From Saccoglossus kowalevskii (taxonomy: Eukaryota; Hemichordata; Enteropneusta; Harrimaniidae): a stretch of DNA of 26,666 nucleotides. The DNA lies in the NCBI RefSeq assembly GCF_000003605.2, contig NW_003148770.1, positions 331,304-357,969 on the forward strand, in the 5' to 3' direction. The notes below the pieces were generated by a model. The model did not search any database. It was not told the DNA's origin and saw only the letters and a program-made list of their open reading frames with translations. A program made the position numbers and the translations under genes. Shown here piece by piece: positions 3,451 through 26,320 of this stretch. The stretch's first letter is position 1; each line of letters opens with the position of its first letter.

Positions 3451-3527
<77 letters not shown>
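3451..3527. repeat. Compound microsatellite (AC)n(AT)n(ATT)n
   Basis: A run of AC dinucleotides passes directly into AT dinucleotides and then into ATT trinucleotides, about 77 bp in all. It is a simple sequence repeat with no coding content. Confidence 0.95.
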
Positions 3528-3530
<3 letters not shown>

Positions 3531-4562
3531 ATGTTGAAGTAGTCCTGAAACTAGAAAATCGTTACAGGTTATGTGAATAACATCTGACTTATGACCATAT
3601 CGCGGATACCGACGGAAGTCACGGAACAAACTACCGCGCGCGTGTTTACGATAAACTCAGGTTAATGATCTGAGCTCCATGCAACGCACGGCCGATGTGT
3701 GACCTCGCTTATCTTTGGGAGTCTTTTGTAAATAATCCGTACCATGCAACTTTAAACTACACGTATGTCAATGAGGTCACCAGTGGACATTGTTAGTATG
3801 TAGTAAACAAGGAACCGATAATAATTATATTATGAATGATACTACCTAACGACCAGAGTATAATTATGAGCACGACACAGCAGGAACAAATTGTGACGTT
3901 TCGTAAGTCAAATACGCGTGTTCTTATTCTGTCTGACACAAGGCGATTTAATTTATATTTAGTTCTTTTCTCCAATATATACAGGCCATGCGCGTAACAT
4001 TGGGGGAGTGCGGGAAATGTTTTTTAAACTTAACCAACGCGGCTATTATCTCAACACGTGCCAAGTACGCATATGGATTATATCTCAAAACTAGTACGGA
4101 ACTAGTTTTACGGACAATACCTCTCCGCATTCAGACGAATGCATCATTTGTTTTTCTATACGCGCAAGGTGAAATATGATTGCAACTCAATAATTAATAA
4201 TTACATAAACTAAATCAATTTTCGAAAAAGAATTGTTGTTGATATGGCAATGGTTATAACGTGACAATCACGCTCCTGTCATGGCTACACCGCGGTATGA
4301 TATGGTATAGGGGAATCCCCCTTCAACCGCCTTTACGTCATACTCTGAAGTGCATGATAACGTTCCAGGAAGTCATGTGACTTGCATTAAATATCATCTG
4401 CAAAACCAGGAAAGTCTTGTATAACTCATTCCAACACGTGCTATGCAGCATGTGACAGCAAAATAACTATTTTTCAATTCATATTGAATTGAATGTTTCA
4501 AATACAGAAGTTTTTTGCAGGTGACTTTCTAAGGTTAACTACGATCGACGAGATTTCAATCT

Positions 4563-4584
4563 CGATACCCGGATGGAATTTCCC
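4563..4584 (+). promoter_or_regulatory. Conserved upstream module with kB (Rel/NF-kB) site, gene at 4717
   Basis: CGATACCCGGAT (4563-4574) is followed directly by GGAATTTCCC (4575-4584), a good match to the Rel/NF-kB consensus. It lies about 140 bp upstream of the start codon. The same 12-bp box followed by the same 10-bp kB site occurs upstream of the paralogue on the minus strand (21783-21759), there with 3 extra bases between them. That conservation in otherwise diverged non-coding DNA supports function. Binding itself is inferred. Confidence 0.65.
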
Positions 4585-4644
4585 GAAGTGATTTTTTGCC
4601 GGGTTCATGTGTTTAAAAATAAACGTAAGGTTGAACCAAAAAAC

Positions 4645-4650
4645 TATAAA
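4645..4650 (+). promoter_or_regulatory. TATA box of the IL-17-like gene at 4717
   Basis: TATAAA lies 67-72 bp upstream of the ATG, between the kB site and exon 1. The corresponding boxes of the other two genes lie at a similar distance (about 63-73 bp), so transcription probably starts near 4675 and gives a short 5' UTR. Confidence 0.55.
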
Positions 4651-4716
4651 AATGTGTTAGAAACATTAGAAATACACACTAGTCCAGTCTGCTCAGTTCG
4701 AGTCTTGTGGATCACA

Positions 4717-6705
4717 ATGGCACAGTGGTTTTATTTAGTGAGTATTATTTTTAAACTAAGTATTTTAATCAAATTTAAATAACGTAAATGTGTCAAATTA
4801 TAGTATTGCATATATGTAAACTGTGCACTTTGCTGTATGAGTGAAAACTAAGCAAATTGGGGGCGATTTGTACCGCAACTGGCAATTGTTGTGTTAAAAC
4901 CTGCTGCTCAACTTCAAAGTGTGTTTTGTGTTCGAGTGTGTTGTTAGTTTTTCGATGCCACGCAATCTTGCGATTCGAGCAATGCATCTTGCAGTGTTTG
5001 ATAATTGTATACTAGACGTATCAAACACTGGATACCAGAGCCGCACACGGGAGAACATATCTTGCATTTATATCTTGCACGTCTTTTATTTTAATCACAA
5101 TAAGTGGCGTGAAGACTATGATACTCTTTATTAAACGCTTATTATTTCTATTTTTTTTATCTTCACTTTGATAACGGTAACGGCATCGTGCTGACCGACA
5201 GTGATATCTTAATAATATAATCATTTACATCGTTTTTTTTTTGTTATACTTTTTCAATAAAAAAATCATTAATATGTACGGTTATGAGGCTCCACAAATG
5301 ACTGTCTTTCATCATATGAATTTGATACCGGAATGAAAAAGTTAAAGCGGTCGTCGCATAGCGCGTTTGAATGTCGTATATACAAATAATTAATGTTGTA
5401 TACGTTGTATGTGACTTCCATCGAACAAGACGCGACGCCATGGATATAGATGACATTATTATGAAGCCAATGGTAGGGTAGTTATATTGTTGGGTTGCTG
5501 CTTGTTGTAGCATATAATTTCCTTCCAATCCTGAATTCAAATACAATCGTAATCATGACAATGGCCAGCATTATGCAACCACGTCATACCAGCAAGGTTA
5601 TATTTTCATGAATATGTAACAGAAAAAGTCACAGAAAAAGTCACATAAACCAGCGAGTTACTCCTATACTTGGACAGGAGCTAAGCTAAGACATGAACAA
5701 GAAGTCCATTTTAATAGTCGTCGAAACTGAAATTCAGTCTTCAAAATGCACCCAAACTATAAAATCTTGCATGTAAGGACTAAATCGCAATTGTGAATGA
5801 AGATATTTATTTATATTGAATTGTGTGCGTTTAACAATATAGACATTTATTGAAGGATGGGTGGAAGACGTTTTTGACTCAATTGTGATACATTTGTATT
5901 ATGTAATTAATTTTCATCAGTTGAAAATTTGACAATTCGTTACATGCTTTGATCACGTGGGTTGGTCACCTGATGCAACACAGCCTACTTTATTTACGGT
6001 AAATTTCCATCAACATCATTAGCCACAATATAGCCAAGTGTTCATATCCTGGAAGAAGCATATTTTTTTCTAGATAGCATGTGATCGGAAATGTACTTTT
6101 GACTAAATCCTCATGTTTTTTTTTCTCAATAGGTAGTGTTGGCGATTGTTTTCTCTTCAGAATTTAGTGACGCCATCCCCATTGACGACTGTCAAGAATC
6201 AATGCAATACCGAGGGAAACACTCTTCGAAATCTTTGTATCCATACACGGACTATTTGGCCATAATGCCTTTCCCCGTAGCTGACGTACCAAAGGGCGTA
6301 CAAACACACTCGCCTGCTGTTCCACTAAGAATATATCGTGGTGATAACGATATGACATTTGCTTCTCCACAAGAACGAAGCAATTGTCCTTTCTATTACA
6401 CCTATGAAGAGGACGCTGACCGTATTCCAAGGACTTTGGCCCACGCTATCTGTTCCTGTGACAAATGCATCGGGGAAGACGGAGGTACGAGCCCCTTGTA
6501 TACCTGTCAACAAATCACATACCCCGTGCCAGTGATGAAGCGAAGTGGGTGCGTCGATGGTTTATTCAAATATCACTTGCAATTCCAGGAGGTTGCCGTC
6601 TCGTGCGCTTGTCTGCGACCAAGAGTGACTACCTATGTTCAAAAACGGAGGAGAAAACATCACACAACATCAGAAAGCGTTCTCCGCGGTCTCTCAATGA
6701 AATAA
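4717..6705 (+). CDS. Secreted IL-17-like cytokine, 2 coding exons (A subtype)
   Basis: Predicted 197-aa secreted cytokine of the interleukin-17 family, which signals through IL-17 receptors in innate and epithelial immunity. Exon 1 is 4717-4737 (MAQWFYL) with donor GTGAGT. The intron is 4738-6132, phase 0. The acceptor is a T-rich tract ending CTCAATAG, and exon 2 is 6133-6705. The join puts a hydrophobic signal peptide at residues 1-21, probably cleaved after SDA. The family domain runs from about residue 92 (CPFYYTYEEDADRIP, matching the IL-17 CPW...DxxRxP motif) through AICSCDKCIG (Cys 114, 116, 119), YTCQQI (Cys 132), SGC (Cys 147) and VAVSCAC (Cys 165, 167), the cystine-knot signature. 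Cys 27 lies near the mature N-terminus. The C-terminus is basic (QKRRRKHH) and ends in LRGLSMK. ATG is chosen because only this exon gives a signal peptide, a strong donor and correct phase, and the paralogue at 21663 matches it. The intron also holds short open frames that I consider chance. Confidence 0.88.
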
Positions 6706-6706
6706 A
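6701..6706 (+). other. Candidate polyadenylation signal overlapping the stop codon
   Basis: AATAAA overlaps the TAA stop of the IL-17-like gene (6703-6705) and is followed by T-rich DNA. If used, the 3' UTR would be very short. The minus-strand paralogue has AATAAA about 17 nt after its stop, so a short 3' UTR is plausible. Confidence 0.35.
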
Positions 6707-6729
6707 TTTGCTATTTGTTTTATTTTTGT

Positions 6730-9700
6730 AGATTTCAAGTGAACTTACAATATGGAAGTGCTTAAGTATGCAATGAGTTTTAATGGTATTGTTCGTCTAT
6801 TTTTTTTAAATTGCCACATTACGCATGTTTTATCTCAGTGACAAGTTTTTTGGGAAAATTGTCGAACGAATTAAGTGATCATTTTATCTAATATTTGGAT
6901 TGTCTGCAATATCAGTTTATCCCTCATCAGATATTGTATGTATATTATATTTAGTGCGTTTTATGACAAATATAGTACACTTCGTATCAAAGGCTGGTAT
7001 GATTATATAATAGTTCCGACATTTACGTCATCGTATGCCTTGTGGTGTACATATTTATTGTAGTCATTTTGAAATGACCATATTTTTTTAAATCGTTAAA
7101 AAATAACACACAAAAGCAAAAAAGTTTACTGTATTCTTGAAAATTGCAGAACCTGTGTATTGTAATATCATTTTAAGACTTATTCAAGTTCTGAATCAAT
7201 GTTATTGTAAAAAATATCTCAAATTGTTTCATTAAAAAAATATGTAATGATTACTCCCCTCCAAAAAAACAACACTTCTCTTAGACTATTAGTATAAATT
7301 GTCGTTTATAACGATTTAAAAAGATATTTGATAATACATGCTCAACCTTGTTTATTAATTTTAATCGTATTGTACACAAGTTATGGTTGTGAATTGTACA
7401 AGATATTTTTACCTTACACTAAGGGAAGTAGTTTGTACAGATGTGACACGTGACAATGTATAACCAATCACAGCTGCGTGTATGAAATAGTCGGGCACAT
7501 TTACATAATTGTATTACTTTTGCAAAATAGCTCATATCTGAGTTATATTGTCAAAATAAAAATTAAATTTATTGAAAATACTTAAGTAACTGTTATTATT
7601 TACACATTACATTACATTTTTTGTAACTTTGATTTTAAATCAAATACCCCATTCTCTTTCGATAGCCATTTAGAGTGAATGCGCACATTTACAACTTGTA
7701 CGAACGTCATTGGTAGGCTAACCAGCGAACCTCTTTGCCTGTTCACCTATTGCATTATTGCTTCTTTTTGGCCACCTTAAAGTAATATCTAAGCGACAAA
7801 CAAAAACACTTTTAGACGTACCGCCAGACTGTAACTTCATCAAAATAAGTATATGATTGATTACAAGAAATAACTAGGAACTAGGAAATAACTAACTTCC
7901 GGTGGTTCCTACACATATGTGCATATTTCGTTCTGTTGTACATATATCCTCGCCCTCGCCAACTACTACCAAAATTATGCCTCAGTTACACACAGGTTTT
8001 TTTCAGGTATCCGGTTTGAAAAAAATAATCAAAAAATGACGTGAAAAATGCCATAATAATAAAAAAGAACGATTAAGTTGAAATAAATACCCCCTCAATA
8101 AGTTTATTTATATTATTACAAACTGGGCAAAGAAACACTGAATTTAGATTTGAGCGTAGCCCAACATAAGCCAGTGTAATCGAATTTGTTACTGATAACA
8201 AATAATTGGTTCAAATTTGTATTACGTTAACAATTTTGACTGTTCCTTCTTACCCTACACAGAAACACATTCACCACACATAGGTGTGTACCAGTAGCAG
8301 CATGAAAGTGAAGCTAATGCCGTTTTATAACTATAACTCAGAAGTCCTTTTACTGTATTACTAGTGTTTATTTTACTGTTATAATTATAATTATTGTTTC
8401 CGGCCGTTTTGTGATTGTATTTTCTAGATTCTTTGAATGAACGCAGCATTTACAATTCATTCGTCGATACAGTGTAAGAATGTCGGTGCCGGTGGTCTCT
8501 TTTGTCGGAGCGCAACTTAGCCAAAAGAAAAACAGGATCAATTCATCACTGCTATTACAAGACTGGTAGAAGGTTAAACATTTGGCGTTAAGCTACTCAA
8601 AAATCAGATTGTGTGGCTTTTGTTACGCCAACAGTGGGCTAGGAATAATTTTTCGATTTACCACCCAGCTAGAGTGACGGTATAACCTGCCTGCCAAGTA
8701 TGAACAAAATCGGCTTAGCCAAAAAAGTTAAAATGCCGTGAAAAGTTACCCAAACTTCGAGGGAAAAATTCCTCGGCAATGAAAAGATATCAAAAAACAA
8801 ACTTTGTACTCACACTCAAGCGGAGTCGCAGAAAGTGACCCACACATTATTCGTCAAAAAATCAAGCAAAGGTTAGAAAGAATTCCCGTGAAAGTATTAG
8901 AGACATATTATAAAATAATTAGTCTTCCAAACAAGATGCTTGACAACTAAACATTGTCTGCTATTTGAGATGTACAGCATTGAAAACAATGTGATCCACA
9001 TTATTGAAACCAACATATTTTTTTGTTGAGATAGCAAACAACAATAATATATCAACTTGGTTACGTCCATTTACGTAACGGAAGCGCTTGAACTATATAT
9101 AATTATACATGTATAAACGATATCGATGCATGTTAGATATCAGTTAATATCTATGTTAACTATCAAATTCATTACCAAGTTATACCGCACTCAGTAATAG
9201 GTGTTTGAGAAGGGGGAATACAGCTTACAGGAAATTAAAACGGCATTTTACGTTTTTACTGAAAATGAAACGAAAGTTTCATTCACAGTAAAAATTAGAT
9301 TTTTACACTTTACAGATAAAGCAAATTCCCTAATTACATTTGACAATTTTATAGTGTATTTAATAATTTGTGTTTAAGAATCAAAATTGGAAATTGCGTA
9401 CGAATTACGACATTTAATGTGTAAAATGCTTTATTGGCTTACAAAAAATAAGATCTTTGTACAAATTACTGACGAATAAAATAACTGATTACATTTGACA
9501 CCTTGCCCATGTCTACGAATTTACGTGTTTTTTTCGTATTTAAATTACACTATTACGAAAATAGAAACAATTGATGACACCTTACGAACATATCCCTTGC
9601 CGAGATACTATGATTAATAGTTAGGAGGTCACCATAGATAAGCTAAAAAATCGTAAAAATGTGTAATACCAACGGTTTTCAGCATAAAATCGGTTACGTT

Positions 9701-10050
9701 TAGAGAAATCCTTGTTTGTACTGTTAAAGTAGATGTTTATTGTCAATTGTAGTAATATAAAAAAGTATTCTTATTGAACAAACGGAAGTGACGCATACAT
9801 TACTAAGGCAATAGCGTGGCGACCAATGTCATATGAGGTGAATAAATCAAGTCGTGATACCCACTCGCCTAAATTCAATATTAACAATTTCTGCAGGATT
9901 TTCAAATGTAAACATACATCACATCTAAGTAGTATAAAAAGAAATGCTCAAATTACCTAGAAGTGTTCCTTGTTTCGAATACCATGGATACTCTTTGCTA
10001 TGTTGAAACACGTGAGATCTCATGTGCGTTGTGGGTAGCCGTGTATTGAA
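6730..10050. other. AT-rich intergenic region, no gene seen
   Basis: I find no plausible exon and no IL-17-like fragment. Frames are short and low in complexity. A perfect-arm hairpin lies at 9253-9294, a short direct repeat of an ACTAGGAAATA-type unit near 7870-7895, and two CTTAGCCAAAA copies near 8507 and 8713. Confidence 0.55.
9253..9294. repeat. Short inverted repeat (hairpin)
   Basis: TTTTTACTG (9253-9261) pairs with CAGTAAAAA (9286-9294), and the inner ATGAAAC pairs with GTTTCAT around a 4-base GAAA loop. It could be a micro-MITE remnant or chance in AT-rich DNA. No gene is adjacent. Confidence 0.5.
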
Positions 10051-10257
10051 CGCCGAGGGGAAATTTCTAGCTTTGCGGAAAAAACTAGTAGTTTCAACAT
10101 ATTTGCAAATATGAGCAGTAAATCCTTTTCCCAATATCCTAAGACAGATAAACGTACACCACCGAGTATTTTAGCATTATAAATACTTAATTTGTTTAAC
10201 CCAACTTCTTGTAATGAGATTATTTGTAACGCTCCACCACAGATTTGTCGAGTAAAA

Positions 10258-10905
10258 ATGGATTTTTTTTCTTTTCTTGGTGATCACCGTGAGTATTGTC
10301 TTTTACATTTACACATAAACATGAATTTGTTATTTTGTCAAATCACGTCGTCAGTCGCTCTCCACAGTTTCCATTGATTGTTATTGGATAATACAAAAGT
10401 GCTTAGAATATATTCTCTTAATAATTTTCTCTTAATAATAAGTCATCCCGCGAACTCTATATGTTTTTATGTCATATCGTGGCATGGTAGTTTTTACAAT
10501 ACTGTCATTACATCAATCTGTGGGTTGATCTGCGCTGGATAATATAAATGACTACAGAAGTCACGTGATTGTATATTTCTTTCAGTCTGGTGGGTCTGAC
10601 CAATTTACAGCATACAGAGACAGTATGCTATAATTTGTCTCTTATATTAATGTCTTATTTATCTGTATTCAACAGGTAGTGAGTTTTGATTGTAGTTTCC
10701 TCGTCGTCGATCGGCCACGATGTACCGGTAGAAGAAGACTGTTGTGAACTCTTTGTCAAATTTTATATCCATAGACCAACGATTTTGCTTTTCAGCCAGT
10801 TTCGGAGGTTACAATGGGACGAATGGCATTACGACATAAAAATAAGCGGACTTCATCTGAGACACATGTTCAACGTCACAGTGTGGCAGCAACGACCACG
10901 TGATT
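10258..10905 (+). pseudogene. Decayed IL-17-like gene, N-terminal half
   Basis: The candidate exon 1 is ATG at 10258, a T8-containing hydrophobic stretch, then GGTGATCACC and GTGAGTATT. The T8 run puts it one base out of the seven-codon phase-0 pattern of its paralogues. TATAAA lies at 10178-10183. Exon 2 follows an acceptor ending TTCAACAG at 10675. From 10686 it reads SIGHDVPVEEDC, closely matching SIGHGIPIEEDC of the gene at 12456-13828. A 4-base gain at its start brings stops (TAG, TGA) into frame, about 24 bases after VEEDCCELFVK are missing, and a further shift leaves a TAG. Shorter blocks still align: CCAACGATTTTGC near 10775, GTTACAATGGGAC near 10808 and a CCACGTGAT block near 10896. 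The cystine-knot part does not follow on this strand. I see no way to read a functional product. Confidence 0.7.
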
Positions 10906-11007
10906 TTCCATTGAAATTAACCTGCTTTATGCTCGACTATATGTATTACAATGCGACATTACTATGAATATTCTAATCACAAAAATCATTTCTCAACCAT
11001 TTCTCAA

Positions 11008-11174
11008 CCATTTCTCAGCATCACTAGCAAGTGTATAGCGGAGTCTCGTCGCCAGAGGCGGTCTGGGACCAAAAAACGGCCTTGGACTTTCCCGACAATA
11101 CATGTTGATCCACCAAAAACCTTGAGGGAAAGTGGTGCTATAGTGGTATATTGTCTGTCATAACAGAACCCACA
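11008..11174 (-). pseudogene. Decayed IL-17-like cystine-knot fragment, opposite strand
   Basis: The minus strand shows three blocks in the order expected for exon 2 of the gene at 12456-13828: CGFCYD (11174-11157, cf. CPFCYQ), GDETPLYTC (11053-11027, cf. GDESPLHTC) and a block matching MRRNG, AGTGATGCTGAGAAATGG (11025-11008). A TAG stop follows the TYC-equivalent Cys codon directly, and spacing between blocks differs from the intact gene, so the fragment is broken by indels. It is followed to the left by three near-identical TTTCTCAACCA-type repeats (10988-11017). The matching N-terminal half lies just left on the other strand. Confidence 0.6.
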
Positions 11175-11548
11175 CAGAGGAACTATTTATGATTGTTTAT
11201 TCACGATCTCGAGAACAGTAATATTCAAGAACGACTAAACATCGCTTGCATCTCTAGAACAAAAATTAACATCTATACATTGTATTTTATATACAGCCAT
11301 ATTACAGTTACTTCTACTGCTTGCACTTTAAAGAGAGAAAAAATCTATACCGCTGTTATCTGTGACTGATCATGAACTTGCCAACAATAATTACACTGAG
11401 TAGTCATTCTGAATGTTGGCTATTAAAGATTGGTACAATTACTGCTGACGCCCGACGGCCGTTCTGGACTTTTACAGAACGTACAGATTATCAGTCCGTC
11501 CTGTTCGTCGTAGATAATTACAAATCATTTTCATCTCCGAATGTTGGG

Positions 11549-11687
11549 TTTATACAGCATGTTTATGATTACACAAATCTGTTTTCTTAGTAAAACTAGT
11601 TATAAGGACGATTCTGTGCTTATATTTGTGATTTTTGAAAATATGTCAGGGAAATTAGAAAATTCCCGAGTTATTCACGACGACTAG
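11549..11687 (-). promoter_or_regulatory. Orphan IL-17-type promoter block
   Basis: On the minus strand, CTAGTCGTCGTG (11687-11676), a kB-like GGGAATTTTC (11667-11658) and TATAAA (11554-11549) occur in the same order as upstream of the intact gene at 13828. The region around the TATA box also aligns: both read TATAAACCCAAC and then GAGATGAAA. No exon 1 of the MAFQLLL type follows it. It points toward the cystine-knot fragment at 11174-11008, so it is probably the promoter of the lost gene. Confidence 0.5.
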
Positions 11688-11699
11688 TAACAACACACG

Positions 11700-12220
11700 T
11701 GACAGGTTTCACAGGTTCGGGGTACATTTATCTGTTAATCCCCACCGTAGTTGCGAACAAGTTGCGTTGGGTTGGGCAGTGAACAAATAATCATTGATAG
11801 CATAGTTCAGAAACAATCGGTAGACAAATATACCAAAATCAGTATATAAAAGGTAACTTGCAGGGGGTGGAAACACGATCTGTTCGGGTTGTGATCGGGT
11901 GAAGTATGTTTGCAGTACAAATGTCAAATTCAAATCTATTTGTAAAAGGCATGGGATTATGGGAATAATATTCACCAGTATGTCCGGTCTGTTCATTTTC
12001 TTTACACTGTCGCAAAATCCCCACAGCGTTGGATATATACTCGTAAATATATACCCGCCAACAGGGCAGCTGTTATATTGAGTACAATTCTTGTATTCTT
12101 GTAATGTAATTTTTTGTCGGGTTTTGGCGACTTGGTTTCTTCCATTTGGACAATAGAAGCGACACGTTTCTGATTTATATACGTAAACAAATAATCCGCA
12201 AGTCGGTATATATTGTCAAA
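11700..12220. other. Intergenic, nothing recognised
   Basis: This is AT-rich DNA between the decayed IL-17 remnants and the 3' end of the next minus-strand gene. Overlapping short open frames on both strands show no family features. AATAAA on the minus strand at 12233-12228 may be a distal polyadenylation signal of the gene ending at 12456. An ATTAAA at 12418-12413 is nearer. Confidence 0.45.
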
Positions 12221-12455
12221 ACATAGTTTTATTGCTAATATTAAAATTCAATATACGATACACCTAATGCCACGAGTTATATGTAAATAAACAATCATGT
12301 GAACCTGTTAACGAAAGGTAAAAAATCGGTATTGATAAGAGGAGTCGTCACGTGATTAGAACATCATGAACCTTGGACACGTACAATAAACATAAATTCA
12401 AAACCAACGTATTTTAATGTACTAGCTCGCAGTGGAATGTTTGGCAGTACACTTC

Positions 12456-13828
12456 CTATTTCATTGAAATCGATTTCAGTAATGACCGGTAATCGTCGGC
12501 ATTGTGTATTTTCTTGTGCAACTTCCTGGAGACATGCACGTGCTCCACATGCCGCATACACGCACAAGACACGGCGACATCTTGGTATTCCATCGTATAA
12601 TTGAACAACCCACCAATGCATCCATTTCTCCGCATTATTGGCATGGGGTAGTATATTTCCTGGCAAGTATGTAGCGGACTCTCATCGCCGTCTTCACTGA
12701 TACAGTAGTGACCAGAACAGACCGCATGACGTAGTATTCTGGGAATACGGTTAGGATCTTCGTCCAATTGATAACAGAACGGACAAGTGCTTCTTTCTTG
12801 CGCAGGCGCGTACATAAGATCGGTAGCATCACGTGGGCATCGCAACTCGCCAACTTGTCCCAGTGTAATCCCGGCTACATCAAATGGCAGAATTGCGAAA
12901 TCGTTGGTATACGGATAGAAAGCTGCAGGAGAGTACCCAGCGTAGCTAACAATCAGTTCACCACAGTCTTCTTCTATCGGTATACCGTGGCCGATCGACA
13001 AGGAGGAAATCACAGTCAAAACTGCCTGTTGATCGGAAGTAAATAACAATTTACGGATTATGAAACAAATCATACCATAGCATGCGTATATTGATCGGAT
13101 ACTACAGATAAGAATAATCACATGATTTTGGTGGTTTTATGTAGTCCATTGAATACGTCACATGACCGCATTCTATTGACTGAATCACAATGAACGTAGG
13201 TGATTTGAAGCATAGTGACGGTGAGACCCAGTGGTATTTAATTACTTGACAATAGAGGGCGAGTTGTTCATTCAGAACAATATAATAATAACAAACCCAC
13301 GGCACGTATTAACGGCACGATATCAAAATGAACAGAATTCACAAGGCGTCTTTAATCGATCGAGTATACATTACAGAAAGTGATTAAATACATAAGGGGT
13401 AGTTTTAAATAAACTAGTTTTCTATTCTCACAACACAATTTTGCAAACACGTGGAGTGGTGATACGTGCACTGACTGCATGATTTGGCGAATTCGCCCCT
13501 TCACCGCTAATGCCTGCATTGTGTCATTGCAACCAAATAATCCTCATTGTATATTTTGTTTCTACTTGAATGAATAACCAACATGTACAGAAATGTTGAT
13601 GTAAACTGCTAAAATTTTTAGTCAAATTATGAACAATTTAGTTGAAATATTTTTTATGTGACATATGGTGAGATGATAATAATATTGAGATATGATTACA
13701 AATATAAATTCGTGTTGTGTCAGCCCCGTAAAAAATCGCTAAATCCTAAAACACATGTTTTATTCACATCTTTGCAAATGAAAGACAATAATATGTATAG
13801 CACTTACCAAGAGAAGCTGAAACGCCAT
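12456..13828 (-). CDS. Secreted IL-17-like cytokine, 2 coding exons (B subtype)
   Basis: Predicted 196-aa secreted cytokine of the interleukin-17 family. Exon 1 is 13828-13808 (MAFQLLL) with donor GTAAGT. The intron is 13807-13026, phase 0. The acceptor ends GATCAACAG, and exon 2 is 13025-12456. Residues 1-21 form a signal peptide ending near SIGHG. Residues 88-163 carry the IL-17 signature: CPFCYQLDEDPNRIP, HAVCSGHYC (Cys 110, 115), HTCQEI (Cys 128), NGC (Cys 143) and VAVSCAC (Cys 161, 163). It differs from the other two genes in lacking the middle Cys of the CxCxxC segment (Gly 112 instead), in having an extra Cys 91 in CPFC and an extra Cys 70, and in having an NYT glycosylation sequon at about residue 149. 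The tail ends LKSISMK. Exon 2 is also open upstream of the acceptor to an ATG at 13121, but that extension lies in the intron of the paralogous structure and gives no signal peptide, so I reject it. Confidence 0.87.
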
Positions 13829-13890
13829 AGTTTACTTGATCAATCTGCAGTGAAGCTTTGCAAATACTAATTTCATCTCGACAAGTTGGG

Positions 13891-13898
13891 TTTATATA
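13891..13898 (-). promoter_or_regulatory. TATA box of the IL-17-like gene at 13828
   Basis: TATATAAA on the minus strand lies 63-70 bp upstream of the ATG at 13828. This is the same distance as in the other two genes, between the kB site and exon 1. Confidence 0.55.
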
Positions 13899-14031
13899 GC
13901 ATTTTTAATGTTGAAATAAGTGAGTCGTGTCTATTTTTATCTGTTTTTAACAGTATTTAAGAGGAAATGGACAAATATCATTGAATGTTCATATTTGTGG
14001 ATGCTGAAACTACAAGTTTTTCGTAAAATTA

Positions 14032-14065
14032 GGAAATTCCAGGACGGTCAATACACGACGACTAG
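14032..14065 (-). promoter_or_regulatory. kB-like site plus CTAGTCGTCGTG box, gene at 13828
   Basis: On the minus strand, CTAGTCGTCGTG (14065-14054) is followed by GGAATTTCC (14040-14032), a Rel/NF-kB type site about 205 bp upstream of the start. The same pair of elements recurs at 11687-11658. The 12-bp CGATACCCGGAT box of the other two genes is absent here, so the two gene subtypes have related but distinct promoter modules. Confidence 0.5.
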
Positions 14066-16981
14066 GCATGTCACATGTAAAACCACGTGCCTGATTCAAC
14101 ACAGTTAAAATAACAAGGAAACTTGAAACAGGACAACTTTTAACCAGATTCTGTTATTCAATTTCAATTTATTTTTACTGATAAAGTCTAATCTATGTTT
14201 TAGATTCTTGCAAAAATTATTAATAATATAATAATGAATTTTTGGGCGCGATAATTATGGTTGGATCATGACAGTGAGTTTTCAATGCTGCTCTAGAAAC
14301 GTATACGTCACTTCCGTTTGTTTAATGGGAATACTTCTCTAATGTACTACAATTACGGCAATATCCAGCAGGTTATTATACTTCGATCAGTGCATCCCTC
14401 CAAATGACAATCCACTAACTTTTCCCCCTACCTGAACATGGGCCAGGATTCAAGCTAACACAAACAAAAGGCCTATATTAACAGTCACCTTGGCTTAAAT
14501 TTCAGTCTTCTTATACACCAAAACTATGTAACATTTTCTATTGGAATACGTAATCAGAATTGCGTATTGAATGAAGGTACACACTTCGCATAATGTGAGT
14601 TATGAATTGTACAAGTTTATGTTGAAGGGTGGACCATGGAAGGGGGAATTCTAAATTTGCCAAGCCGCACATTATTCTGAAGTTTCTAGAAAGTACCCAC
14701 AGTGCACTGCATCATTTTACATTTTGCTGGCGTTTCTAAAGTAAACCTTGCATGGTAAACATTTGTTGACGGTTAAAGCGGGATGGTCGTCACCTGCGCA
14801 CGCGCGGGAAGTGAATCCCAAGCGACGATAACAACACACGCTAAAACGCAAAGGCTCATGGGTAGACTCTTGTTTGTAAACAATGACATGCTATGGCCAC
14901 CTGACGCATATACTAGTACCCTGACTACTGGGCGTAAAATAAAGGTGTCTGTTGGTTTAGTGTAAGCCCTAGACTCGCACAAAAAGTGTCTAAATGAATG
15001 AAACGTGGGCTACATTTAGACCGCCCTATGGCGGGTTAGTTCTACTGTAATGATATCCTCGTTTCTTAAATGTGGTCGATTTAGTTTCACAAATTCGATA
15101 TGACAAGACTATTCACGTAAATCACATATTTTTTTTTCATACACTTGAATAACCATATATAGCATCATTTTAAACGTTTAAATATCTTCGAGAGTAATTT
15201 CCTGAATACTGTCATCTCGGGTCAACTGTTTGATTGGCTGGTACGTTACAGGAATTAGTAGAGTGAACACAGAGGGCGCATATCTAAATACAAATACAAC
15301 GATAAATTTGAGACCCAAAAAAAATACAGCGTTTATGAGAGTTTTACAACTCATTACGATGTCCTAGTTTTTCTGTGATGACCATTGACTTGGTAATCAA
15401 AACATTTTTGTTTTTAAAAAAATCGTTGGTGTTGTTGATCACGGCAATTCGTTACACCGCAGAACCTGTCAAAATATGAATATATCATACGGAGAAAACC
15501 TTTTCTCTGAGGTTCTCCAACCCGTGTCATGGGGGAATATCGTCTGGTCTCTATATCTCGTCTGCTTGAGGTACCGGACCGGGAACGTCACTTAAACCTT
15601 ACAGTCAAATAGACGCACACAACGAAATACGTTTCAACTCTCGTCTTTAGTCAGTCAGTCGAGTACTCTATAAGACACAGCGCCCTGGGGGAAAGTCCCC
15701 AAGACTATCGCAAGGCTGACCCAAGACAAGACTGCGTCTCTCGTGGTGTTCTCGCCAAGACCAACTAAAACAACTTTATTCACTTTCCAAAACCTTAACG
15801 AATTGCAAAGCAGTTTAAAATCTCTAAGGCATGGTTTTCACACATTCGACCTGCACACACTAAGTACTGGACACGTCATATCTACTGATTAATCGTCCGC
15901 TATATTACTAACTGCGAATACTAACTGTCAGAAATAGCGGTCCGGATAGCGACGGTTATATCGTAATTAGTTCCAAATCACTGAGTCAAGTTCCGTCCAG
16001 GACCTCGCATGATCCTAAACGATGACAGATATCACACAGCAATTCAATAGTAATCAGCTAAACAAGTCGGTCAACGGATACGCAAAAACTAATTCATGAC
16101 AAATACGTGAAAAAAACATCGAAACTAGGTCTTCATGAAGGTTGGTAACACAAGTACTAGTACAGTGTATGTCGAGTGAGCACTTCCACCTCATTGTAAT
16201 CCATATGGGTAATTGGACTGATTCAATTCTAGACCAAAAAATAACAAGTACGCGTTTTGCGCAGTTGGATATATCACAACTTTTACTGAGGATTTTAATC
16301 TAACAAGAAAAGGAGGAAACAAATTATACTGAAACACAAAAACACGCACGCGAGAAAACGAACGAAAGTACTGATGAAAGTATAGTGACCAGTTTGTGTT
16401 ATGGGAGAGCAGCTAAGGTATTATTGTTTTTGGCTGTGTCACTTTGTTGAAGTGTACGGGATATTAATGGATCGACTCGGACCAACACAATACGACAAGG
16501 TGACTTTTTAACAGTCATTTCTGACCCCGCATATCTGTTGTGTTGAATAACACGTAGCTAAGTGCGTATCCCCACGTTTAGCGCCGTGTTGGTCAAATGA
16601 TAACATGGCAATGTTCATGTTGTCTATGGGCGTCACCTGCCTGTATCGTACCGTATAACGTAGTTCACGTGCAGAGTACATTTCCAATCACATATCATGA
16701 CATATGAAATGTCTATTTATGATTTGCATACATTTACGTGACTTCATTTCATAAAAATGTATACGTTTTTTTTATAAAATGAATTTGTTCGGGTATTTGT
16801 AGTGCCTTTTCTGCATTGGTCGGATAAACAACCAATAAAGTAAATGACGAGACGCAGGGAAGACATAATTGAGAGCCAATGATTCTAAAAGAGAGTAGCG
16901 TATGTCCTGCAGCCACCAAACCATGAGTAATGTATACACAAAACTACAATTTGAACTGGCATTAATGCCATTTTCGAATAG

Positions 16982-17178
16982 GGCAAGAGTTCCTCTTGTA
17001 CACCCCCATCCCTAACCCTAACACTAACACTCACTTCCAGTTACCCAATTCATTTGATTATGCCCCTCTAGATTACTATAGATGTACCTTAGGAGGGGTA
17101 TGAACAATTAAATGAGAAGTGCTGGAGGGTATGGTAAGGGTTATGGCTAGGGATGGGGGTACAAAACGAACTCTTTCC
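16982..17178. mobile_element. hAT-like MITE with 8-bp target duplication
   Basis: The element begins GGCAAGAGTTCCTCTTGTAC and, read from the other end, GGAAAGAGTTCGTTTTGTAC. Both arms continue into CCCCCATCCCTA and then a CCTAACCCTAACAC / CCATAACCCTTAC-type stretch. It is flanked on both sides by TCGAATAG (16974-16981 and 17179-17186), an 8-bp duplication as made by hAT-superfamily transposases. At 197 bp it has no coding capacity and would depend on a transposase elsewhere. The superfamily call rests on duplication length only. Confidence 0.75.
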
Positions 17179-19441
17179 TCGAATAGTAGACAATTTTATT
17201 TTTTGTAATATGATACAAATATTTGCTAATTGCACTTGTACATATAAAGACGTCGACTGTGAGGTTTACTCTTTTGAATATCAACGTAGCAGTGACGATG
17301 TACTAATTTGCATACGCACATTTTGTGTTACAGTAATAAATAAAAACAACAAAGATGCACGTGACTATGATTGGTATCAATTACTAGCTGAAGTAACGTG
17401 TATCAGATATCGCATAAATTTTCTTAAATGAAAGCAAAAATCTGTAATTGTTTTTTCAAATTAATGAAATGGATAATTTTAATGATTATTGTTAATGAAT
17501 AATGAAAACAAATACAAATATTCAAAACACGGTTTTTCCTTCTAGATCAAATCAAAATACGCTTTTGATGGATAACGCGCACTTCGTAATACCCTAAGTG
17601 AAATCTAAATTTATTCTGTGTTAATTTCCAAAAAATATATATTTTTGAGACAAAAAATACAATAATTATTTTGCAATATTCCATAAATTAACGACAACAC
17701 ACCGAACACAATGGTATATTTAAACGACATTGCTCACACACGACGTCACAGCAACTTTTTGTTGCCAGAGGGCGCAACTCATTTGTGTGTGTGCAAAAAT
17801 ATCAAATTCATTCTTCAGCTTTAGCGTGTAGTGAGTTAGTCTCACACATGGGAGAACATATATTGGTTATATATACGGTATACGGTATACACCACACTAC
17901 ATTAATTTTATTACTAACGAGAACATACTTTTTTTGCTTTTCAAATTACGCATTGCAGCTTTGCTGTCAACAAAGGTTTCAGCGAGGTGTTCACCAAATG
18001 TTTCGCTTGTGCATATATGAGCATTTGCGGAGAGGTGGGGATTTGATTGAATAGTATTTAAAATCAATATACAAAATACTTGCTATAAGAAATAAAAATG
18101 AACTTGAGTATTTTCTGTTAATGTTATTCTTATTTTATTATTTGGTCCGATATCGGCTTTATAGCATAAATGATACAAATATGTAAATGGTGTTAGAATT
18201 ATTCATACACACAGCATTGATTGGTTTAAATAGTATCACGTGTCATCTGCTGAACAAACAACGCATCTAAATTGTGTCTTCACAATTAAAAAAAGCAATA
18301 CATTAAATGACTACTAGTATGTAATACGCCATTCATATGAATCGCGCCCTCTAGAGACGTTAATAGGTGACACGAAGCTGAGGCTGCTCAACTATCCTGC
18401 GGAACTGGAGTAGTATTTTACTATATTCCAGGCAACGAACGACGGCTAAGCAAATAACACAGTGGTCGATTTGAACGACGTTGATTTCTCCGTAATATTA
18501 TCTAGTATGTCCATGTAATATCAAACATACGGAGTTGATTATAACTTTGAGTAGTTTGGGCATATTTAAATAAATATTTTCGATTTTACACGCTGAGAAA
18601 AACAAACAAAAAAACACAGCAGCAAACAAAGCATTACAAGGTAGAAACCAACGTGTATTAAGTAGAGAAAACAAAACTTCTAATAAACATGAGATTATAT
18701 ACGGATTATATATCTTAAAATGAGCTTCGATTACTGTCGGGGAAACTTAATCTCAATTGTAATTGGTACAATAATCATATCAATGGTGATTGGTCTAAAT
18801 TAACGACCCCTGATTATTTTTTTAGTCGGCATGTCGTATCCCGAATTGACATCAAGCTCGGTAGATTATACATGTTGTAAAACTCTATTTTAGTTTATGA
18901 TTTCGTTTTGCTCAACGAAAATACGGAAAACCCGTAATGCGCATGCGTACTAATGATTTTAATATTTTATCAATCGAAAGCTGATATGCTTGCAACCAAT
19001 ATATTATACTCAAACATACACAAAGTTGTCCCACGTTGCTTCTTTACGTACTACGTCGCCATAGGCGGTGTCGCCAACCAGCATGTGACCTCCCCATAAC
19101 AAACATAACTCACTGATCAGCACTAACACTAAATCTTCTATGACAACAATTCCCACAAGTTGTTTTATTAGCAGGTATTATTATACATCTGTCATCGTAA
19201 CGCTATAAGATACAGCGTGCCGTAATGTTGCGGTATTTTACGGGGTATTTTCATCCTACCATATTAGGAAATGCGAATTCCAAATATGGAATGATTACGC
19301 ACGTACGTGACCTCTAATAAAAAAACTGGCTGCCACCAGAGTTTCACCGGACTCCACACAAAGAACTTCGTTGATTCTGTTCTAAACATTTTGGATTTCG
19401 GTATTCCCATGGCGTATCCTTGGTGGAAAGATGTATAATAA

Positions 19442-19576
19442 TAAGGTTATTACGAGAGTTCATCAAAGTATACACTCAGACAGTACGCCGCGCATCGACC
19501 TCCGCCGCGCGTCGGTCGATAATCCAGCTGTACTGTCTTCAGGCATACTTTGATGTATCCTCGTAATAATCTCTTA
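19442..19576. mobile_element. Hairpin MITE with ~45-bp inverted arms and GC-rich loop
   Basis: The left arm (19442-19486) and right arm (19530-19576) are imperfect inverted complements. The termini are TAAGGTTATTACGAG and TCGTAATAATCTCTTA, and the inner ends are ACAGTAC and GTACTGT. The loop is strikingly GC-rich (GCCGCGCATCGACC, CCGCCGCGCG) and contains its own inverted pair ATCGACC / GGTCGAT. A shortened family member lies at 849-917. Confidence 0.7.
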
Positions 19577-20084
19577 TACATACATGTATATTTAATAACG
19601 TTATTTTATCTCCGTTTAGCGGACGACCGGTTCTTGCAAAGCAGTTATTAACTGTTATTAGTAGAAAATATGAAATGTACTCAATTACATTATCTTTCCT
19701 ATTAACAGGGATTCGTAAATTTATGCCACGATGCAAACAATTCAATTATATAATAAATTTCACAATTACAATATGTTTTTTCTTTCATATATGGAGTTTT
19801 AACAACTATTCAAAAAAATACGGTCATTTCGTAATGACTACAATAAAAAAAAGTACACCACGTGGCATACGATGACGTCACGATATCGTAACAATTGTAT
19901 AATCACACCAACCTTCGATACGAAGTGTAGCATACATGTCATAAAACGCACTGAATATAATATAAATACAAATACAATCTCTGGTTATTTTAAAAAGATT
20001 GATTATAATATAGATAATTCAAATAAACCCATCCTTCCCTTATTCGTTCGATGACCCCGTAAACGTGTCATTGCGTATGACAAG

Positions 20085-20090
20085 TTTATT
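20085..20090 (-). other. Candidate polyadenylation signal of the gene ending at 20107
   Basis: AATAAA on the minus strand starts about 17 nt after the TAA stop codon. It is the nearest such signal and would give a very short 3' UTR. Confidence 0.4.
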
Positions 20091-20106
20091 TGACTGCCTC
20101 GAGTCT

Positions 20107-21663
20107 TTATCTCATTGAGAGAGCACGGAGAACGTCTTTCGATTTATTTTTGCGGTGTTTTCTTTTCCGTCTTCGAACATGGGTAGTTTCTTTCGGTCGC
20201 AGACACGCGCAAGAGACGGCAACCTCCTGAACTTGCAAGTGATATTTGAATAAACCATCGACGCACCCACTTCGCTTCATCACTGGCACGGGGTATATGA
20301 TTTGTTGACAGGTATACAAGGGGCTCGTACCTCCGTCTTCTCCGATGCATTTGTCACAGGAACATGTAGCGTGGGCCAAAGTCCTTGGAATACGGTCAGC
20401 GTCCTCTTCATAGGTGTAATAGAAAGGACAATTGCTTCGTTCTTGTGGGGATACAAACATCATACCGTTATCACTACGATATATTCTTGGTGGAACAGCA
20501 GACGACTGTGTGTGTACGCCCTTTGGTACGTCAGCTACGGGGAAAGGCATTATGGCCAAATAGTCCGTGTATGGATACAAAGATTTCGAAGAGTGTTTTC
20601 CTATCACTGGTTCTTTACATTCTTCAATGGGTTTAGCTTCGATAATCTTGGCTGAGAAAGGAATCGCCAACACTACCTGTTGAACAAATATGTGAATTAA
20701 GTTAAAAATACACCATTACCGACTCCCATGTACGTTATCTTTATTTTTTCCAGGAAATGAAAATTTGGCTACTGATGTTTTCGGAAATTTACCACAAATA
20801 AACTGTGCTCTTTCACCCTTGGTCAGTGTTCAGCACGGAACTAGTTGTCGAGTTTTTCTGTGTGAGCTTTGGAATCAGAATACGTGAATGTATAACGTAA
20901 TACAAATATATCACCAAAAATCCAATATGGATGACCGCCACGCCCGTATCACAGGATTGTAGTACGAATGCCATTTCGTCGTTTAATTCAGATTTCAAAT
21001 TAAATTACTACACCAGTATCACTTGTCTATCATTTGTTTCTTAGTGATATCTGCTAAAGTCATTACGTCATGCTCGAACGTGCTGTGTGATGACTGTGGT
21101 ACTTCATGTAACAAACTAATGTTACGGATGTAACACTTTTGTGATACAAAGTTCACGTGACAAGAGACTGATGTGTCAGCTGATGTGTCCGAACCTGTCC
21201 ATAATTTAGGCATTCATTACAATAGATTGGAACAACTGAGCAGTTGATTCTTTTGAATTATACTATGGCTGCGTATGTGTATCAGTGTAATTTAGTAGGG
21301 CTCACATTATCAACGTGAATTTCAAAACATTTTGAAAATAAAAGGTGGTGGTGAAGGTTATCACCTAATCACGTTATTACCTCAAGGCGACGCAAGTACA
21401 GTTGTTTGAAGTTGCACAATTAATAGCATTCTTGTCCTAAATACGATAGTGGCAAAGATGGAAATTGTATTCTCCTAGTCTAGCGGGGGAAGAGGCAGCG
21501 ATTGGCAACTATTGCTTGTAACAATCTATATTGCGTTCACAGATATTGCAAAGTGGACAGTTTTCATTTGAAATACGGCAAAGCAATACGTTATTTGTGG
21601 GAAAACAACAAGTACTAGTCTTAGTTTAAAAATAATACTCACCAAATATAACCACTGTGCCAT
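20107..21663 (-). CDS. Secreted IL-17-like cytokine, 2 coding exons (A subtype)
   Basis: Predicted 196-aa secreted cytokine of the interleukin-17 family, a close inverted paralogue of the gene at 4717-6705. Exon 1 is 21663-21643 (MAQWLYL) with donor GTGAGT. The intron is 21642-20677, phase 0. The acceptor ends TTGTTCAACAG, and exon 2 is 20676-20107. Residues 1-21 form the signal peptide. The cystine-knot domain starts at CPFYYTYEEDADRIP (Cys 90), then HATCSCDKC (Cys 112, 114, 117), YTCQQI (Cys 130), SGC (Cys 145) and VAVSCAC (Cys 163, 165). An extra Cys 27 is shared with the paralogue. The tail is very basic (RRRKRKHRK) and ends LRALSMR. The knot domain is nearly identical to that of the first gene, while the signal peptide, the segment just after it and the tail differ more. 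The first 23 bases of the two introns are also identical, so the copies are recent or homogenised by gene conversion. Confidence 0.88.
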
Positions 21664-21730
21664 CGTTATCCGCAAGAGTGGAATCGTGTATTTCTACTAT
21701 TTTAAAACTTACTTATAGGAGTTATGTCTA

Positions 21731-21736
21731 CTTATA
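21731..21736 (-). promoter_or_regulatory. TATA-like box of the IL-17-like gene at 21663
   Basis: TATAAG on the minus strand lies 68-73 bp upstream of the ATG, matching the spacing in the paralogue. A second TATAAG at 21717-21712 is nearer the start and is an alternative. Confidence 0.45.
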
Positions 21737-21758
21737 AACTACTATTTTTAACAAGGTC

Positions 21759-21783
21759 GGGAAATTCCACAATCCGGGTATCG
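21759..21783 (-). promoter_or_regulatory. Conserved upstream module with kB (Rel/NF-kB) site, gene at 21663
   Basis: On the minus strand, CGATACCCGGAT (21783-21772), three bases (TGT), then GGAATTTCCC (21768-21759). It lies about 100 bp upstream of the start codon. Both elements are identical to those upstream of the paralogue at 4717, where they are directly adjacent. A CTACGA motif a few dozen bases further upstream is also shared. Confidence 0.65.
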
Positions 21784-21789
21784 ATGTAT

Positions 21790-24700
21790 AGATTGTATAA
21801 GTCGTAGTTATCATTAGTTCATTCCGTATTTTGAGAAATCTTGGAAAACAACTCAGTTGAATGCAACATATGCTAATAAATAATTTAGTACTAGAAAAAA
21901 TGATTTTAATATTAACCAATTTGCCAACGTGTTTGAGACCATGTGTTGAATTTGGGTCACGAATCATGAGTTTGTCAAAATTTTCCTGGTTTACAAGTCA
22001 CGTGACTTCATGTATGTCACATGACTTCCTCAAACGTGCTGAGGTATATTTGGAAATGTAGGTATGGTGGAGTTGGAAGGGGGGCTCCCCGGCACCAATG
22101 CTCGAGTTATAATGCGTGATATACGACGGAGTCACCATGAAGGGGCATGATTGTCACGTGGTATTCATAACAACAACAATTACCAGAGCTGCACATCTAG
22201 TCCCATACAGGAATAAACAATCCAATCCTTAAAATACCAAACACATAATAATACGCCTGCCAGTGTTTTCAATCACGAACCGAGTGGTAGGCAGATGAGG
22301 GGAGTACTGTAAAATGTAGTCCCGCGCCGAGGGTTTCGGTAACCTCAATATTTCAGGCTAAGGGAGAATATGTTCAAATCCCTCAAATTTCTAGACGTAG
22401 CACTGCATTGCCGCCTTTCATGTTTTCCCACCCACAGGTATTTTAGTATGTTAGTTGGGCGCGAATTTGACGTGGGTTAAAACGTCAAATTCTTCGGTTA
22501 TTTTTACACTTTCCGAGTAAAAACTTTACAGGTTGTTCATATAACAGAAATAAATTAAATATTAATCAACTTCATAAAAATATCGACAATTAATATGGCA
22601 TGACTTGTGACACGCTGTAGTTTTTAATTGGATATTATAAATAAATATAATTTCCTGTTTTGCTTCTGCCGGGTCGTGAGGTACTACCCATGGTATTATT
22701 ATTATCGGTTCCTTGTTAACTATCGCCACTAGCGACCGCATTAACAAGCTTATTCTTTGCGTGAGTGGTGTTGTTTACAGAAGGCTACAAAGGTCACTGA
22801 GGTCACACAACAATCGTGCTGGTTTTAACTTACAGTAAGTACGCTGAAGTACGATATCGTAATCCGGTTATAAATGTTAAGTTGTGTACACGATCTGTAT
22901 TGGCTTTATCAATATATGAATGCAATGTACTAAATAACGTATCAGGGTTTCATTTACAACAGGAAGTTCAATACATTACGGGTATAATAACATCGACATG
23001 TATGGCGACTTTAATGCGACACGGGGCAAGTTGAAAGGGTGAAAGAGTGTTCATAGTGTTCACGGAGGGAGCTTGGCCAGTATTTGTGCCAGTTCTATAG
23101 ATGTACTTCAGTATCAATCTTTGGACGACACTCAAGTACATCTTTGTGATAGCACTTTGAGCTCAGAGGTGCCCATGAGAGCTGCCGTAGATGCATATAT
23201 TGTGTGTAAAACGTGTGAACGCAGAACGGTGAGACATTCTGCAACGTAGCACGTTCTATAACCATGTTCGATTGACTAAAACACAAGTAGCTTCTTCAGA
23301 TTTCAGTCTTGGGTGTTATAGGTCATAGGCGTGAGGGAATAATTAACAATGAGTACTCGTGACGTCATTGCGAGTAACTTTGTAATGGAACAACATACAT
23401 TACATCGCAGACACTGTGGTGAATTTTATATGGTTTGCATGTTCTCAATTTTCTAATGAAAATTTCGTTATTTAATGAGCCCGGGGCAGTTTATTAGTAA
23501 TGTAAACACAAAGACGGACATGGGAACCGCAGGCTGCACCCGGGTAGTAATAGTAACAGCTTTCGTTGCATACTATTATCGTGAAATAAACAACCACGTA
23601 ATATACAAAAAGTACCGACAAAGAAACCACTTGTTGATTTCATTGTAACTATGCATAGGAGAGGGCGATAATATTAATAGGTATCGTCAGATGATTCTAC
23701 GGTATCGAACAACTTCCCATATTGCCATATCGAGTTCAACACCCACTATTGTTCAGAATAATTATCATTAATTACATATTTACACTTTATTGTATTACTT
23801 TAAATATGGCTGTTAATTATATGTGTTATATGTTGGTGGTTATCAACTAAATACCTCACTAATATATTTTGCATTAAATGTACAAGTGAATAAGAGAGAT
23901 GACATTCACATTATTTCTTCAACTAGTGGTATAATATTCCTATTGAATTGGTGCTATGTATTGATATTTTAGTCTCAGTGGAACCTGGACGTTTTTCCTA
24001 TTTCAATTTAAGGCCTTCTCCACAGTGCTCATCCGCAGTTCCGGGAAATATCTCTCTAGTTCTTGTACAGTACCGGAACGGTCCAAAAAGGTGTTCTGCA
24101 TGCATATTAGCGTACTTGAACCTGCTTGCCAGTTGAGGCAAATTGAAAATTGAGACTTTCCCGCTTCTTGATGGTGGCATTCTTCAGTTGGACCTGACCG
24201 CAACACTCCTCATCCGGTGAAGTCCTACCTAAGGGTGTTGGTGTTATTGAAGGAACTGATTTTACGGCACCCAGTCAGAAATTGATGATGAACGGCAAAT
24301 TATGTGTTGTCTTTGTGGACACTGTATTCATGGTCACCACGTTGCACGTTCATCATTTATGCGCTTGCGCATATTGCGTGGCACACTATTCTGCCTAAGC
24401 AAGAATAACGAGCATGCAAATTATTTTCATATTTTTTGCGGGTATTTTGGGAGTTGAAAATCTTTTTCAACTGAAAATCTACGTTTCTCAGTTCTTCTCG
24501 CTGCCCGCGTTTGTACTCACCCACACTCACTATACTATGATCTTTAAAACACTGTTTGAAATATGCCGCGGTCTTCTTCTAGGTTGCATATCTATTGTTG
24601 TCTTTTGACTTAAGTTTTTATATTTTTGTCCTACCCTTTGTATGCGCAAATAGAGTTACATCGTAATTAGGGAATCTAGAATTACAGAGACTTGTGCAAC

Positions 24701-25747: not shown

Positions 25748-26320
25748 ATATCGTTTCTAAATAGCGCTGTTGTTTATAATTTAGATATTCTAAATAGCAA
25801 ACTGAATGTCGCCGTAGTTTATAATTAAGATATTCTAAATAGCTAAAGAAATAACGCCGTAGTTTATAATTAAGATATTCTAAATAGCTACTTAAATAGC
25901 GTCGTAGTTTATAATTAAGATATTCTAAATAGCTAAATAAATAACGCCGTAGTTTATAATTAAGATATTCTAAATAGCTAAATAAATAGCGCCGTAGTTT
26001 ATAATTTAGATATTCGAAATAGATAAATAGCGCCGTAGTTTATAATTAAGATATTCTAAATAGCTAAATAAATAGCGCCGTAGTATATAATTAAGATATT
26101 CTGAATAGCTAAATAAATAACGCCGTAGTTTATAATTAAGATATTCTAAATAGCTACTTAAATAGCGTCGTAGTTTATAATTAAGATATTCTAAATAGCT
26201 AAATAAATAACGCCGTAGTTTATAATTAAAATATTTTAAATAGCTAAATAAATAGCGCCGTAGTTTATAATTAAGATATTCGAAATAGCAACCTAAATAG
26301 CACCGTAGTTTATATTTAAA
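25748..26320. repeat. 45-bp AT-rich minisatellite, about 12.5 copies
   Basis: Full units start at 25765, 25810, 25855, 25900, 25945, 25990, 26031, 26076, 26121, 26166, 26211 and 26256, with partial units at both ends. Each begins CGCCGTAGTTTATAATTAAG. The unit starting at 25990 is 41 bp long, having lost 4 bases. Because 45 is a multiple of 3 the minus strand is open for 105 codons (26323-26006) with a 15-residue repeat (YLNYKLRRYLFSYLE). This ends where the 4-base loss shifts phase, so I regard it as non-coding. Confidence 0.95.

Follow-up and report, generated by a model that had tools for sequence, protein, structure and literature searches.

We are highly confident that the stretch of Saccoglossus kowalevskii DNA analysed here (26,666 nucleotides, hereafter the window) contains three protein-coding interleukin-17 (IL-17) genes, each opening with a first exon of 21 bases, together with the relic of a fourth copy, all arranged as an inverted two-gene block whose outer pair, genes A and C, later probably underwent gene conversion. 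The species agrees with the mitochondrial contig of the assembly, on which COX1 is in the opposite strand to two neighbouring frames recognised as COX2 and ND1, all three using AAA and lacking AGG; for S. kowalevskii, PMC3121625 gives an inverted COX1, AAA read as Lys and an absence of AGG. The three genes are ordinary in kind and represent a clear case of the known IL-17 family. To the earlier description our analysis adds the relic, the mirrored arrangement of two genes in one block, a tract of probable conversion and the apparently family-wide occurrence of a short first exon.

Gene structure

A sequence-only reading of this DNA had proposed IL-17 genes of two exons with a seven-codon first exon, a structure that our analysis backs. 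The three exon-2 frames are open and contain the IL-17 motifs, and the phase-0 GTGAGT or GTAAGT donor claimed for the first exons occurs in all three genes. That reading had also counted an ATG plus seven codons; this part needs correction, as the ATG is itself one of the seven. The gene models are as follows.

4717..4737, + strand: gene A exon 1, encoding MAQWFYL; donor TTA/GTGAGT at 4738; part of a 64-nt island that has 89% identity with gene C
4738..6132, + strand: gene A intron 1, phase 0, 1395 nt, predicted to be spliced
6133..6705, + strand: gene A exon 2, encoding the remainder of the signal peptide, mature IL-17 and stop; PF06083, E 2.8e-17
13808..13828, - strand: gene B exon 1, encoding MAFQLLL; donor TTG/GTAAGT
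12456..13025, - strand: gene B exon 2, IL-17 domain and stop; PF06083, E 1.4e-18; matches to IL-25 and IL-17F in the PDB
21643..21663, - strand: gene C exon 1, encoding MAQWLYL; donor TTG/GTGAGT
20107..20676, - strand: gene C exon 2, IL-17 domain and stop; PF06083, E 4.7e-17

The predicted introns of genes B and C, both on the - strand, measure 782 nt (between 13808 and 13025) and 966 nt (between 21643 and 20676), and the spliced products of A, B and C would comprise 197, 196 and 196 amino acids. The open frame of gene A starts at the acceptor, with its first methionine at codon 24 of exon 2, and that of gene C extends 13 codons upstream of exon 2 with no methionine among them; neither gene has a signal-peptide start of its own without exon 1. 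For gene B alone there is an unspliced alternative, in which a single exon would begin at an in-frame methionine upstream of 13025, as the open frame runs on to 13136. We consider this very unlikely: the resulting N-terminus has a weaker hydrophobic core than the spliced one (2.19 versus 2.84), the arrangement seen in A and C would be absent, and the first exon of B, its TATA box and the similarity of its promoter to that of the relic would be left unexplained.

IL-17 identity and predicted secretion

In the Pfam profile search that had been suggested as a check on the three exon-2 proteins, all of them match IL17 (PF06083) with bit scores of 63.3 (A), 67.5 (B) and 62.6 (C), far above the curated cut-off of 24 bits. 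In the PDB, 25 distinct sequences are matched by gene B with E ≤ 0.01, every one of which is IL-25, IL-17F or IL-17A. Its core aligns with vertebrate IL-17F and IL-25 (PDB 3jvf and 7uwj), and it has four cysteines in common with IL-17F, aligned to the CxxxxC and CxC pairs of that protein. Unlike IL-17F, gene B has cysteines in place of two serines, in agreement with PMC4517768, where invertebrate IL-17 is described as having a third knot bond. Both the aligned cysteines and the invertebrate third pair are kept in A and C, and the corresponding bonds are predicted. Genes A and C also carry an additional cysteine in CSCDKC that is absent from B, and B carries one in CPFC that is absent from A and C; these may possibly reflect a relocated bond partner.

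The best ten-residue hydrophobic window of the spliced products covers residues 5-14 in all three genes and thus spans the exon junction after residue 7. A candidate cleavage site follows residue 21 in each, as judged from hydropathy and the (-3,-1) rule. On the side of the receptors, the genome contains four SEFIR matches above cut-off, which suggests that a receptor system is encoded in the same genome. SEFIR domains are found in adaptor proteins as well.

Further IL-17 copies

A whole-genome search with PF06083 yielded at least 14 matches, nine of them on the scaffold of the window. All 11 exon-2 starts that were read, including the three in the window, are compatible with an acceptor in phase 0 where a hydrophobic stretch is encoded, those of the 582 and C2506 genes having been picked by eye within a longer open frame. 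Upstream of six other copies we find candidate first exons of 8-10 codons, likewise in phase 0. Four of these (MGVFTKIM, MGFITNIV, MGFFSKIM and MDVVFFAKIL) belong to copies whose sequences upstream of exon 2 are mutually alignable; the remaining two are MQSCILLLAL in C2506, where an exon of 14 codons with an earlier start is just as possible, and MVFSFVLR in the second C1763 copy. The first C1763 copy is not among the six because a run of N occupies the place where exon 1 is expected, nor is C3164, in which exon 2 itself starts with ATG and none of three candidates is convincing. With candidates at six further copies, the short first exon looks like a trait of the family.

The position of the intron relative to the signal peptide varies among these copies. 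In the 582 and C2506 genes, as in the window, the hydrophobic core spans the exon junction, and the best hydrophobic stretch lies wholly within exon 2 in the 564, 572, C318 and C1763 copies, so that exon 1 would supply only the methionine and the n-region there. Hydropathy across the nine copies therefore places the intron near the start of the signal peptide, not in every case within its core. The C2506 match spans only profile positions 3-62, and this gene accordingly either has a further exon or is cut.

Some of the copies are broken. The two C1763 copies (loci L031 and L032) are very similar and lie approximately 4.5 kb apart, the second with a stop in its exon-2 frame. Three more matches on the scaffold of the window, in loci L013 (C3896:470000-479900) and L011 (C3896:567901-577800), have short or interrupted frames. 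The broken copies on this scaffold suggest birth and decay of IL-17 genes along approximately 250 kb.

Promoter elements

The following promoter elements were located upstream of the first exons, with distances given from the ATG.

4645..4650, + strand: TATA box of gene A, at -72
13891..13898, - strand: TATA box of gene B, at -70/-68
21731..21736, - strand: TATA-like TATAAG of gene C, at -73
4575..4584, + strand: kappa-B-like site GGAATTTCCC of gene A, at -142, in an island common to gene C; putative function
4310..4320, + strand: second kappa-B-like site of gene A, GGGGAATCCCC, at -407; putative function
21759..21768, - strand: kappa-B-like site GGAATTTCCC of gene C, at -105; putative function

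Gene C has a second kappa-B-like site, in a weak form, at -427. The expected counts per 600 bases are 0.07 and 0.20. These sites may point to kappa-B-driven induction of genes A and C. Within 600 bases upstream, none was found for gene B, for the relic or for five of the six other copies, the C2506 gene having one at -132. We rejected kappa-B control as a general rule for these IL-17 genes, as GGRRNNYYCC sites occur in A, C and C2506 only of the ten promoters scanned. A further kappa-B-like site in the window, at 15699, lies away from any first exon. A TATA box at fixed distance was likewise discarded as a family-wide rule, the group of copies 564, 572, C318 and 582 having no TATA at the distance found in the window genes.

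First exons and chance expectation

Short elements of this kind may arise by chance, in which case the true first exons would lie elsewhere, for example with the start codon in an exon farther upstream. We defined the element as an ATG followed by a phase-0 GTRAGT donor after 5-12 codons, within 2 kb upstream, and generated 1000 first-order Markov sequences per gene as a chance model. At least one element is present upstream of nine of the nine genes tested, the candidate of C3164 among them being doubtful. In the simulated sequences an element is present in 10-12% for A, B and C (5-12% per gene over the nine genes), falling to 0.5-1.2% for A, B and C when a TATA box at -90..-55 is added, figures that are descriptive only because the limits on length and TATA were set after the window genes had been seen.

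Given that roughly one in eight to ten of the 2-kb sequences simulated for the upstream regions of A, B and C holds such an element, chance deserves to be weighed, and several observations nevertheless make it highly improbable as an explanation of the seven-codon exons. Both strands of the window contain five elements, three of which are the first exons of A, B and C; these three alone have a TATA box 50-90 bases upstream (-68 to -73 from the ATG in all three), and none of the other elements in the window has one in place. When the window is taken together with loci L010-L016 (187,210 strand-bases), 20 elements are found, of which eight are proposed first exons; one of the 12 not taken as exons, in locus L015, has a TATA box in place. 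The 64-base island around exon 1 and its donor is kept between A and C, most of the intron aligning poorly. Finally, the same architecture appears in divergent paralogues and in sea urchin. We therefore retain the seven-codon elements as the first exons of the three genes.

An inverted two-gene block and a relic copy

Comparison of the window with itself, after removal of identity hits, mirrored duplicates and hits that begin beyond 25600 (a minisatellite), gave 14 matches, 11 inverted and three direct. Ten of the inverted matches fall on one colinear chain that runs from 2708/23644 outermost to 10624/13079 innermost; the eleventh corresponds to the similarity between A and B, and one direct match to that between B and C. 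The resulting features are as follows.

2708..10756, + strand: left arm of the inverted duplication, from ten colinear inverted blastn matches
12949..23644, - strand: right arm of the inverted duplication, from the same ten matches
10258..10756, + strand: relic of a fourth IL-17 gene, the partner of gene B; ATG resembling that of exon 1 at 10258, frame-shifted beginning of exon 2 at 10676

Across the mirror, gene A is paired with gene C, and gene B with the relic at 10258-10756. The relic has a TATA box at -80 and an acceptor, with GTGATC in place of the donor GTAAGT of gene B. No homology was detected past 10756, and the open frame at 10683-10967 within and beyond the relic has no Pfam match. 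The inverted colinear chain agrees with the earlier proposal that one gene structure was duplicated locally with inversion, with the amendment that the duplicated unit is most simply a block of two genes, inverted, that later lost sequence near the centre of the palindrome. The block-wide inverted duplication is old.

As for other genes in the neighbourhood, seven other open frames of the 18 in the window were compared with Pfam and none scored over the cut-off, the one sub-threshold match among them lying inside the minisatellite. This repeat, at 25758-26319, consists of 12.6 copies of a 45-base unit and leaves one reading frame open over long stretches. A frame of 168 amino acids at the palindrome centre (11712-12215, - strand) was considered as a gene and rejected; it is probably a dispersed repeat, because six further sites in the genome match portions of it, chiefly the C-terminus.

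Probable gene conversion between A and C

Silent differences between genes A and C are unevenly distributed along exon 2. Among 147 degenerate codons that encode the same residue in both genes there are 11 silent differences, two of them at the 114 codons within exon-2 codons 29-156 and nine at the 33 outside. A permutation analysis in which the segment search was redone in each of 2000 shuffles gave p = 0.0015 for the silent-cold segment. For the pair A and C, dS amounts to 0.10 over codons 27-160, as against 0.36-0.45 in the two ends. The silent sites of A and B, and of C and B, are saturated over the whole of exon 2. From this pattern, gene conversion has probably made A and C alike in the core of exon 2, over the following tract.

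6217..6600, + strand: tract of probable gene conversion with exon 2 of gene C, delimited by the pattern of silent differences

The same pattern might instead reflect constraint on the coding DNA itself, and the cold segment does largely coincide with the mature protein. This alternative is the less likely one, and we judge it unlikely: gene B keeps the same domain, yet its silent sites are saturated relative to both A and C, so that a constraint on the DNA letters could not be general. Gene conversion remains our preferred account.

The divergence between A and C also bears on whether the genes are functional. Given the broken fourth copy, and the short or interrupted frames of at least four more IL-17 matches elsewhere in the genome, one might regard A, B and C as functionless relics too. 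We take this to be almost certainly wrong, given that their frames are full, their cysteines are conserved, and dN in the A-C core (0.038) is lower than dS (0.104).

Discussion

Taken as functional genes, A, B and C would work as follows. Transcription would start approximately 30 bases downstream of the TATA box, and the 21-base first coding exon would provide the methionine and the first residues of the signal peptide. Splicing in phase 0 would join this exon to exon 2, which encodes the remaining signal-peptide residues followed by the cystine-knot cytokine. The protein is predicted to be secreted and may act on SEFIR-domain receptors. The cluster itself would have formed by inverted duplication of a block of two genes, after which one central gene may have been cut down near the palindrome centre, and the outer pair A and C later exchanged exon-2 sequence, probably by gene conversion.

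Among the closest known parallels is sea urchin SpIL17-1, whose first exon, of two exons in total, comprises two codons (the methionine and one residue), as checked by 5' RACE in the section cited of PMC5457136. SpIL17-1 resembles the genes described here in having the IL-17 domain in exon 2, a very short first coding exon, clustered copies and some pseudogenes in the family; it differs in its two-codon exon and tandem cluster, as against seven codons and a mirrored array in the window. A short first exon of this type, with a splice predicted to fall inside the signal peptide, is indicated by sequence in all three window genes and in six further candidates. For S. kowalevskii itself, IL-17 is reported absent in the section cited of PMC4517768; PMC8353272 (2021) gives nine IL-17 sequences in seven clusters with tandem arrangement. 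The repertoire of the latter very probably represents the same gene family, and the section cited is silent on first exons, the mirrored block and the relic. Among the best matches in the IL-17 and Saccoglossus literature, as judged by title and the opening of the abstract, none concerned the structure of this cluster.

These genes bear on how IL-17 proteins that appear to lack a signal peptide are interpreted. In the section cited of PMC4517768, 18 of 54 invertebrate IL-17 proteins (one third) have no predicted signal peptide and are read as possibly not secreted; the corresponding part of PMC8353272 suggests a missed signal-peptide exon as the cause of signal-less forms, which would then possibly be misannotated. 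The short first exons offer a direct test between these two readings. They also provide concrete, checkable models of hemichordate IL-17 genes, whose start codons would be invisible to single-exon models, and the mirrored pair with its probable conversion tract represents a small-scale natural example of concerted evolution among clustered immune genes.

As a tentative proposal, which may well prove wrong in this general form, we suggest that a tiny phase-0 exon starting the signal peptide is ancestral and conserved in ambulacrarian, perhaps wider invertebrate, IL-17, and that in mirrored IL-17 pairs gene conversion preserves the likeness of the mature domains as the promoters, introns and signal peptides diverge. 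If this is true, the loss of the exon from gene models would account for much of the reported third of IL-17 proteins from invertebrates that lack a signal peptide, and mirrored pairs would constitute near-identical ligands under different control.
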